From NCBI RefSeq assembly GCF_014695585.1, contig NZ_JACJON010000054.1, forward strand, positions 1 through 64,000: a stretch of DNA of 64,000 nucleotides, written 5' to 3'. Shown one piece after another: positions 42,658-45,175 of this stretch (within the stretch, counting starts at the first letter, position 1; each line of letters opens with the position of its first letter). Both the position numbers and the translations under genes were made by a program. The notes under the pieces are model-generated. The model worked only from the letters and a program-made list of their open reading frames with translations. It was not told the DNA's origin and did not search any database. The stretch comes from Microcoleus sp. FACHB-831 (GTDB lineage Bacteria; Cyanobacteriota; Cyanobacteriia; Cyanobacteriales; FACHB-T130).

Positions 42658-43704
42658 TTAGGGGTAGAGCAAAATTTTGTAGGTTTCGGGAGTGGGGGCG
42701 ATCGCTTGTTCTACCGCCTTAGATAGATCTTCAAGCGGGTAGCGATCGCTAATGAGGGCATCAACATCAATCCGCCGATTAAACACAATATCTGCCGCCA
42801 AAGATTGCAACCGATAAGAGGAACTGTAACTACCCATTAAATCAATTTCTCGTCTATAGAGAATATTGGGGTTAAGGGGAAATTCCACCGATTCGGGAAA
42901 CTCAGCGAAAAACAGAATTTTGCCCCCCTTGCGGGTACAGTCTAGAGCTTGGAAAAAAGCCTTTTCACTAGGAACAGCTAACAGCGTTGTATCAACTCCC
43001 AAGCCATTGGTAATTGCTTGTATTTTGGCGGGTAAATCTGGATCGCGGGCATCAAAAGCAGCTTCTGCGCCCACATTCAAAGCTTTCTCAATGCGAGAGG
43101 GAAGCAAGTCAGTAGCGATCGCTTTCCCGCCGAAATACTTCACAAGCATAACGAACATCAAACCAATCGGCCCAGCTCCAGTCACCAAAACAGTTTGTCC
43201 GGGGGCAATTTGGGCTTTTTTAACTGCTTTGAGACAGCAGTTAGTCGGCTCAACAAAACTCGCTTGCTCAAAAGTAGTTGCATCGGGGATAGGAATCAAG
43301 CCACCGTTGCGAACGATATGCCCTGGAACCTTGACATATTGTGCAAAGCCGCCACCACTGGGGTTAAAACCAGCAGTTGTGGTGATGTTCTTGTAGTCAT
43401 CGCACATAGAGAAGTTGTCATTGAGGCAGTATTCGCAGCGCATACAAGGGATGTGGTGCATCACGACAACACGCCGTCCAACTTCCCATCCTTGTACTTC
43501 AGAGCCTACCTTAGCGATCGCCCCAGCCGTTTCATGCCCGAAAATGCGCGGCGGCTCGTATAGAGGATAGCGAATCTTTTTGATATCAGACTGACACAAG
43601 CCCACAACCTTAACCTGTACCAGTACCTCATCCGGTGCAATTTCCGGCATCGGCACTTCTTCGTAACTTAGTTGATTAACGCCTCTAAATACTTGTGCTT
43701 TCAT
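42658..43704 (-). CDS. Zinc-dependent alcohol/sugar-type dehydrogenase
   Basis: A 348-residue MDR dehydrogenase. Catalytic zinc ligands are Cys in VGLCQSDI, His-Glu in GHETAGAI; the structural zinc site is CMRCEYCLNDNFSMC. The NAD(P) motif is VTGAGPIGLMFV. It resembles sorbitol/threonine-type dehydrogenases; substrate is uncertain. Single gene. Confidence 0.9.
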   Translation of the reverse strand: MKAQVFRGVNQLSYEEVPMPEIAPDEVLVQVKVVGLCQSDIKKIRYPLYEPPRIFGHETAGAIAKVGSEVQGWEVGRRVVVMHHIPCMRCEYCLNDNFSMCDDYKNITTTAGFNPSGGGFAQYVKVPGHIVRNGGLIPIPDATTFEQASFVEPTNCCLKAVKKAQIAPGQTVLVTGAGPIGLMFVMLVKYFGGKAIATDLLPSRIEKALNVGAEAAFDARDPDLPAKIQAITNGLGVDTTLLAVPSEKAFFQALDCTRKGGKILFFAEFPESVEFPLNPNILYRREIDLMGSYSSSYRLQSLAADIVFNRRIDVDALISDRYPLEDLSKAVEQAIAPTPETYKILLYP

Positions 43705-44115
43705 GCTTAATTCTCCTTTACCTAGCGATATTAAACTTTACCATTAGCGCTCGGCTATTAGCTTGTGTTTATTAGCTTTCAGCTAACCGCTATTTACCCA
43801 ACCACTAACCTGATTTTCTATTTTTTCCGGAATCTTGTCCGCTAGGAACGATTGGGACTATAGACCTAACTTTTATCTACCCCGCCGAGACAGAGCAGCC
43901 TTTAGATGCTCGCGACGTTACGCCCGGAGGTAAAGCAGAAATTATAAAAATATTTTTACCAGCAGCCTTTGGAGTCTGGTGACTATTTAATTCAGCGCTA
44001 AATTGCTATTTTTTAAAAAGATTGACGGCGTAAAAATAAGGCTGCCGAATTATGCGCGATATAAATCTCTCTAAAGCGCGAAAAATAAACATAAATAAGC
44101 TTTAATGGTAGTTTT
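43705..44115. other. Intergenic region with a second TCCGGA element
   Basis: A TTTTTTCCGGA element at 43821-43831 resembles that of the patX promoter (44112-44121) and is also followed by GTCCGC. No small gene with a ribosome site is seen, so a non-coding transcript from here is possible but unproven. Confidence 0.4.
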
Positions 44116-44146
44116 TCCGGATGCATTAGCAGAAAGTCCGCATAAG
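44116..44146 (+). promoter_or_regulatory. DIF-like promoter of patX (TCCGGA)
   Basis: TCCGGA at 44116-44121, then 19 bases, then CATAAG at 44141-44146. TCCGGA near -35 is the DIF+ motif of differentiation-linked promoters in heterocyst-forming cyanobacteria. The predicted start, ~35 bases from the TCCGGA centre (~44153), leaves a ~25-base leader before the ATG at 44178. Confidence 0.5.
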
Positions 44147-44177
44147 TAAGCAGAAACCCTAATACGGACTATCGGCT

Positions 44178-44402
44178 ATGCGTGCTTCCACATCTATCGT
44201 TTTGTTGGGAATGATCTCAGTTGCGCTGTTTTTTGATTTTCAACAGCCTCAATCTCAAGCAACAAGCCTGCGGCTATCTAACGATTCTGAGCAACGTGTA
44301 GCCGCTAAAACTAACCCGCGCAAGCCTAAAGGCCACCCCCAGCGGGGTAGCGGGCGTCGAGAGTTCTTGCAATATCACGATTCTCCAATTCAGCAATCTT
44401 GA
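44178..44402 (+). CDS. patX: PatX-type RGSGR peptide precursor
   Basis: A 74-residue protein with a hydrophobic N-terminus (STSIVLLGMISVALFF, likely export signal) and RGSGR at residues 56-60 (44343-44357) in the context HPQRGSGRREFLQ. RGSGR is the pentapeptide of PatS; PatX proteins are exported precursors bearing RGSGR-like sequences and occur together with hetR in filamentous cyanobacteria. The released peptide is thought to bind HetR and inhibit differentiation. Ribosome site is weak. The TCCGGA promoter element supports the call. No hetR or patS is in the window. Confidence 0.82.
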   Translation: MRASTSIVLLGMISVALFFDFQQPQSQATSLRLSNDSEQRVAAKTNPRKPKGHPQRGSGRREFLQYHDSPIQQS

Positions 44403-44500: not shown

Positions 44501-45175
44501 TTAGTTCCTAGCAGTTTGCCAGAGTTGGTCAACAGTAACAAACTGGTAGCCTTGGCTTAAGAGCTGGGGAATTAGCAGCGCAGTTGTTTCGGCAACATCT
44601 TGTCCGCCGTAGTAGCCATCATGCAAAACAATTAAGGAACCATTCTGAACTAAGCGCAGAACTCGTTGTACTACGACTGAAACCCCAGGTCGTTCCCAGT
44701 CCTCCGGTACAACGCTCCACATCACTGGTCTATATTGCCACTGGTGCAATAAGTTTATGGTCTGGGGTGTGAACAAGCCATTAGGAGGACGGACATCTCT
44801 AATGTTTTGAGGGTTTATTTGACAGGCTCTCGCGATCGCACTTTGGCTTTCTTCCAAACTCCGCTTCAAGTCTGCTGGACTAAAACGAGGAAAAGCGCGA
44901 TGATCGTAGCCGTGCAGCCCCAGCCAATGACCGCGCTTGTAAACTTCAAGAGCAATATTTGGTGCGCGGTCAACACAAACACCCAGCCAGAAAAAACTGG
45001 CTTTTACGCCATATTGGTCTAATACATCCAAGAGTTTTGGCGTCCACTGGCTATGGGGGCCATCATCAAAGGTGAGCGCGATCGCCCGTGAAGTTTCTGG
45101 TCCCGACCACAGACAGCTAGGAAAGCTGCGCTTGAGGATTGGGTACACAATAGGATAAAGCGGTGCTAGCTGCAT
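44501..45175 (-). CDS. Polysaccharide deacetylase (NodB domain)
   Basis: A 224-residue deacetylase with the NodB motifs ALTFDDGPHS (catalytic Asp, metal Asp), LHGYDHRAFPRFS (metal His pair), RPPNGLFT and VVPEDWERPGV. There is no clear signal peptide; the N-terminus may be an anchor. It removes acetyl groups from a cell-wall or exopolysaccharide polymer. Divergent from the lipoprotein gene at 45198, with only 22 bases between the two starts. Confidence 0.88.
   Translation of the reverse strand: MQLAPLYPIVYPILKRSFPSCLWSGPETSRAIALTFDDGPHSQWTPKLLDVLDQYGVKASFFWLGVCVDRAPNIALEVYKRGHWLGLHGYDHRAFPRFSPADLKRSLEESQSAIARACQINPQNIRDVRPPNGLFTPQTINLLHQWQYRPVMWSVVPEDWERPGVSVVVQRVLRLVQNGSLIVLHDGYYGGQDVAETTALLIPQLLSQGYQFVTVDQLWQTARN

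Follow-up and report, generated by a model that had tools for sequence, protein, structure and literature searches.

Within the window, by which we mean the whole 64-kb stretch of DNA analyzed here, a gene of 74 codons lies on the plus strand at 44178..44402, with its stop codon at 44400-44402. This gene is almost certainly a patX. An earlier note on this DNA had described a gene with the pentapeptide RGSGR at residues 56-60 and assigned it to PatX, and both points are borne out. RGSGR is encoded at 44343..44357 (plus strand), preceded by a Q and followed by an R, and the protein scores 40.7 bits against the NCBIfam profile NF047413 (heterocyst_PatX), which has a cut-off of 30. Of 148 related genomes, 58 gave a match to the same profile at E up to 0.01, and 52 have one over the cut-off. 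Residues 1-28 (44178..44261, plus strand) read as a putative hydrophobic, Sec-type N-terminus for export, whose end was set by eye. A Pfam scan found no Pfam family in the product, and no other RG[ST]GR is encoded in any of the six frames of the window. Among PatX proteins with a single motif, 52 of 70 have H immediately before it and just 1 of 70 has Q, the residue that the window gene has. An identity as PatS (NF047415) was rejected. PatS shares the HetR-binding RGSGR but is described as a 17-aa product ending in the motif, whereas the window protein is 74 aa long with 14 residues beyond it, and an NCBIfam scan at E up to 10 gave PatX alone. The gene itself is a further member of an already described family.

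The flanking genes are a divergent zinc-type dehydrogenase (42658-43704, minus strand) and a convergent polysaccharide deacetylase (44501-45175, minus strand). Neither was found beside PatX in the other loci compared, and the window locus alone has them. A dehydrogenase 33% identical to the one in the window was seen near hetR in another locus (L046).

Ahead of the ATG at 44178 are a DIF1-type box, TCCGGA (44116..44121, plus strand), and a -10-like box, CATAAG (44141..44146, plus strand), 19 nt apart, just as the earlier note had proposed. The first T of TCCGGA stands 62 nt before the ATG, a position common to relatives. The abstract of the 2018 PatX paper reportedly has the DIF1 box no more than 69 nt ahead of the start codon, and the window gene falls within this limit. 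The genome of 6,420,582 bases contains TCCGGA 870 times, which gives a chance of about 0.002 of finding one in a given 16-position slot. When the best hexamer starting 56-70 nt before the ATG was taken from each of 94 PatX leaders, it was TCCTGA in 33, TCCGGA in 23, TCCAGA in 7, and another one-base variant in 18, so that 81 of 94 have TCCGGA or a one-base variant there; the remaining 13 are two or three changes away. At the -10-like position other PatX leaders often have TATCAG or TATAAG. A sigma-70 promoter is not supported for the window gene, a scan for the consensus having found none, the CATAAG box included, and the one terminator-like site in the same region scan is on the minus strand and at shuffle level. 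Passages of PMC7377430 place DIF1 centered at -35 in Anabaena. With the box set at -35 as in Anabaena, transcription would start at about 44153 (44150..44156, plus strand), between the arms of the inverted repeat described below.

The genome contains one HetR match (HetR_C, PF18460, E 1.1e-44), on contig C77, in agreement with the presence of HetR claimed from the window alone. The further claim that patX follows hetR does not hold: a place beside hetR is ruled out in this genome by the separate contigs (C54 for patX, C77 for hetR), and in the linked cases inspected patX precedes hetR. HetR was found in 85 of the 148 relatives, and in 20 of 54 PatX-bearing genomes a PatX copy lies 5' of the HetR domain at no more than 3.5 kb, counted regardless of strand. 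Two of the 54, G143 and G013 (which has an 11-copy precursor), gave no HetR match, a result that rests mainly on the survey of the 148 relatives, and a HetR protein search of four genomes, run without a positive control, gave zero matches. In the same-family relatives G001 and G003, with G004 like G001, the PatX-like gene before hetR has an altered pentapeptide (RGTSR or KGTGR), and these changed pentapeptides are what is seen in the hetR-linked PatX-like genes of loci L047, L050, and L051, also from same-family relatives.

No nifH over the cut-off of 394.35 bits was found in the genome, the best and only match reaching 220.7 bits, which makes heterocyst patterning unlikely; that role is not supported here. 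For the patX-hetR pair a function other than the spacing of heterocysts is therefore probable. The only ground for taking the strain to be filamentous is where hetR and patX are known to occur. PatX and HetR are presented in passages of PMC7761841 as an ancient pair of multicellular cyanobacteria, and passages of PMC11298460 term their role in strains without heterocysts a mystery. Necridia and filament breakage are a role put forward by other authors.

The strain has two other genes of this kind. A second PatX of 182 aa carries four RGSGR and reaches 40.9 bits when the whole protein is scored; it is encoded on contig C36 (L013 9501-10049, minus strand, G000:C36), its leader has TACTGA at the usual box place, and it is without the repeat. 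A TCCGGA does occur 350 nt before this gene, followed 60 nt on by ATG CGC GTC and a stop, which looks like a truncated patX start; a strong hairpin with a T-run (-22.0 kcal/mol) comes after this short ORF and before the real patX. The window gene offers a parallel in a second TCCGGA at 43826-43831, which lies upstream of the divergent dehydrogenase and 352 nt ahead of the start of patX. The third, PatX-like gene (L014, G000:C57:167309-167509, minus strand) has RGECR in place of RGSGR and, at 17.4 bits, stays below the cut-off of 30. Its leader has TCCCGA 59 nt before the ATG and a repeat with a score of 8.5, centered 35 nt after the box start.

Precursors with 2-17 RGSGR are found in 14 of the 54 PatX-bearing genomes: two copies in one genome, three in seven, four in two, and 5, 6, 11, and 17 in one each (for example, 6 in G120, 5 in G104, 3 in G076, and 11 in G013). 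The 17-copy gene holds a tandem array of 45-48-base units, and most of the differences among the 15 units compared are silent. None of the 14 has its multi-motif gene within 3.5 kb 5' of hetR on the same contig. The pattern search described below adds multi-motif genes in G032, G073, G089, and G105 (two copies each) and G121 (four), and other sets add G179 (four) and G385 (two). Neither multi-motif PatX nor the start-site repeat was found in the literature searched, to which the founding 2018 PatX paper did not belong, and either may be described there.

Around the inferred start of the window gene lies an inverted repeat. Its left arm, AGCAGAAAGTCCGCATAAG (44128..44146, plus strand), with the core GTCCGCATAAG from 44136, overlaps the -10-like box, and its right arm, CTAATACGGACTATCGGCT (44159..44177, plus strand), overlaps the ribosome-binding zone and reaches the start codon. 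The core pair is GTCCGCATAAG / CTAATACGGAC, and the helix score of 9.0 has a p of 0.005 against 200 dinucleotide shuffles. The right arm is marked out both by this helix score and by co-variation across leaders.

We looked at the repeat across the family in leaders drawn from 110 profile matches, 109 of which were read (G124:C3 was left out); a PatX was kept if RG[ST]GR was present or it scored at least 30 bits, and if there was an ATG near the match start. This kept 94 leaders in 54 genomes. Of these leaders 54 remain below 80% identity, 52 of them with a box that differs from TCCGGA or TCCTGA by no more than one base, and 47 without the family f33. Members of f33 we tentatively take for heterocyst formers, on the resemblance of their PatX N-termini to those of named Nostocales. 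Examined individually, and with the centre left free, 17 of the 54 leaders show a best repeat at p up to 0.05. When position is considered, a Watson-Crick helix score of at least 6 is reached at a centre 34-38.5 nt after the box start in 27 of 52 leaders, compared with 0-5 of 52 for seven other bands, and permuting the right halves among the 52 leaders gave a mean of 7.3 and a maximum of 15 in 300 trials. Without f33, in which only 1 of 5 leaders has the repeat, the count is 26 of 47 at the common centre against 0-5 in the other bands, and 500 half swaps across families gave a mean of 6.7 and a maximum of 14. Swaps of halves within the same family (also without f33) scored 0.23 against 0.56 for the true pairs, and in 9 of 11 families the repeat occurs in one leader or more. 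Shared ancestry alone does not make the peak at this centre, because the other bands keep the same relatedness.

Among 12 new leaders from named-genome loci only 2 have the repeat at the expected centre, and another band has 3. Further loci were chosen from match lists, 20 from one and, from another, 16 in other orders plus one already in the set; the 14 new leaders from further genomes, some of other orders, gave 5 at the expected centre against 0-1 in other bands. In the pooled leaders the count is 38 of 72 against 0-8 in other bands, where the pool consists of the discovery set, the C57 gene, the 14 further leaders, and pattern matches (which were chosen by their left arm) and leaves out the 12 named-genome leaders. 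Paralogs within one genome (G135, G024) have unrelated arm sequences at about the same centre. We consider the repeat very likely to be real and under selection.

A search in the forward direction used a pattern made of the box and the left arm only (TCCTGA, 13-16 free bases, TCCGTATCAG). It found 13 sites in 12 of the 148 genomes, and the reversed pattern found 0. A PatX-like ORF begins 58-63 nt downstream at 12 of the 13 sites, the exception being G007:C177, which has none. Ten of these ORFs are of 59-110 aa with RGSGR, one is of 30 aa ending in HRGSGR, and one is of 65 aa with PGSKR; 8 of the 12 are absent from the PatX profile matches. The right arm, which is not part of the pattern, scored 7.5 to 13 at the eleven sites scored. 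The start-site repeat is a practical search handle, which finds PatX genes that the curated profile misses. The 30-aa ORF is in G067 (L311 1501-1654), with the TCCTGA box and the repeat ahead of it, and is followed by a second PatX-like gene and hetR.

Our best explanation of the locus as a whole, which we favor with some reservation, is that of an exported HetR inhibitor driven from a DIF1 promoter and insulated by the start-site repeat. A DIF1-type promoter, with TCCGGA near -35 and CATAAG near -10, would start a short mRNA near 44153, which would encode the 74-aa precursor for export. A periplasmic peptidase of the PatP kind would trim this precursor to an RGSGR peptide, which could then reach neighboring cells and block HetR. 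The start-site repeat would most likely insulate patX: transcripts started upstream would carry both arms and fold, leaving the ribosome-binding zone paired, while DIF-started transcripts would be without the left arm and remain open. Of this, the gene identity, the promoter layout, the presence of hetR, and the co-varying repeat across relatives are what the data show. Export, cleavage, HetR binding, and DIF regulation would carry over from other strains. Passages of PMC7761841, PMC7377430, and PMC12756182 describe PatX as exported, with RG(S/T)GR, accompanying HetR, and with TCCGGA (DIF1) promoters, and in passages of PMC12756182 on Nostoc, PatP cuts the exported PatX precursor and HRGTGR binds HetR. 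The start site and the role of the fold-back we infer.

That the window PatX acts as an inhibitor of HetR seems probable. One observation counts against it: according to passages of PMC11298460, deletions in Leptolyngbya BL0902 suggested that what PatX does there mostly does not depend on HetR. In these passages the BL0902 patX also has a predicted DIF1 promoter and its strain lacks nif genes, a situation like that of the window gene; in BL0902, however, patX lies directly before hetR, whereas the two are on different contigs here.

The role of the repeat was approached through predicted RNA folding. The ribosome-binding zone of the window patX is predicted to be unpaired at 0.29 with its own left half, 0.41 with a foreign one, and 0.64 when the RNA begins at the inferred start. 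Across leaders the corresponding predicted values are 0.43 with the own left half, 0.50 with a foreign half (p 0.0003), and 0.58 without a left half. Part of the difference between long and short RNA is expected for any longer RNA, and since any longer RNA pairs more, the foreign half is the fairer control. Watson-Crick co-variation of the arms across leaders is strong. Wobble pairs, however, are not enriched, and there is therefore no sign of tolerance at the RNA level: over a fixed interval in the pooled leaders, G-T/T-G was counted 24 times and A-C/C-A 41 times, where composition predicts 44 and 63, and inside helices the counts are 6 and 15. Since predicted openness and the arms of the paralogs speak for RNA and the wobble test against it, we propose the fold-back role tentatively, at somewhat less than even confidence. 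A known structured RNA was rejected as an identity, the one Rfam match, to a microRNA family, scoring 21.4 bits where the gathering score is 90. Passages on sigG of Bacillus (PMC5942855) and on phage T4 genes, I-TevI and others (PMC2988022), provide precedent for hairpins that close in read-through transcripts only. The sigG hairpin of B. subtilis and that of T4 I-TevI, as described there, resemble the window repeat in having two arms, a ribosome-binding zone in the right arm, and a start between them (in the window, the inferred one). The patX hairpin differs in being predicted only, in having arms rebuilt between lineages and paralogs, and in a wobble test that does not support it.

Alternatively, the repeat may be a DNA-level element, in which a dimeric regulator (HetZ, HetR, or another) would sit on two half-sites around the start and time or repress patX. 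The missing wobble enrichment fits such an element, as does the common core near TCCGTATCAG / CTGACACGGA that many arms share, and passages of PMC7377430 report that DIF1 promoters depend on HetZ in Anabaena. One regulator could hardly, on the other hand, recognize the unrelated arms that the paralogs in G135 and G024 carry at about the same centre, and the drop in score on half swaps within a family (0.23 against 0.56) also speaks against it. On the same balance of openness, paralog arms, and wobble pairs, we regard a role in DNA as a possible but somewhat doubtful reading.

A different question is whether the window gene matters much to the strain. It could be a backup or decaying PatX, with the four-motif paralog on C36 as the main source of RGSGR. 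The four motifs and 40.9 bits of that paralog would agree with this, as would the loss of the exact motif (RGTSR, KGTGR) from the hetR-linked PatX-like copies of G001, G003, and G004. The window gene nevertheless retains RGSGR and the repeat, and its TCCGGA is exact and as far from the ATG as is usual, while the C36 gene has TACTGA at the box place and its TCCGGA at -350; we consider a backup role rather unlikely. Still less credible is that the repeat has no function of its own and that its complementarity comes from separate constraints on the -10 region and the ribosome-binding zone, for although each arm shares bases with one of these elements, the left with the -10-like box and the right with the ribosome-binding zone, halves from other leaders, equally constrained, pair clearly worse, and the right arm was present at all eleven scored pattern sites without being asked for, results that already make this view unlikely.

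The window gene can be set beside PatX of Anabaena/Nostoc PCC 7120 (NF047413). The two are alike in being small, with an N-terminus that is hydrophobic (in the window gene, as read from the sequence), RG(S/T)GR near the C-terminus, a DIF1 box, and hetR in the genome. The window gene differs in having RGSGR rather than RGTGR and Q rather than H before the motif, in not lying beside hetR, and in having the start-site repeat, and its genome differs in having no nifH over the cut-off and in containing multi-motif and variant paralogs.

For the family, these results suggest, as a possibility that we put forward with caution, that in many cyanobacteria other than the presumed heterocyst formers patX is insulated by a start-centered repeat whose arms are rebuilt between lineages and paralogs, that translation is confined to transcripts begun at the DIF promoter, and that signal dose is tuned by 1 to 17 RGSGR per exported precursor. 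If this is true, an inhibitor that silences HetR would not be produced accidentally, and the start-site repeat suggests tight control over a secreted inhibitor. Up to 17 copies of the ligand per precursor would mean that dose is tuned by repeat number in a bacterial morphogen.
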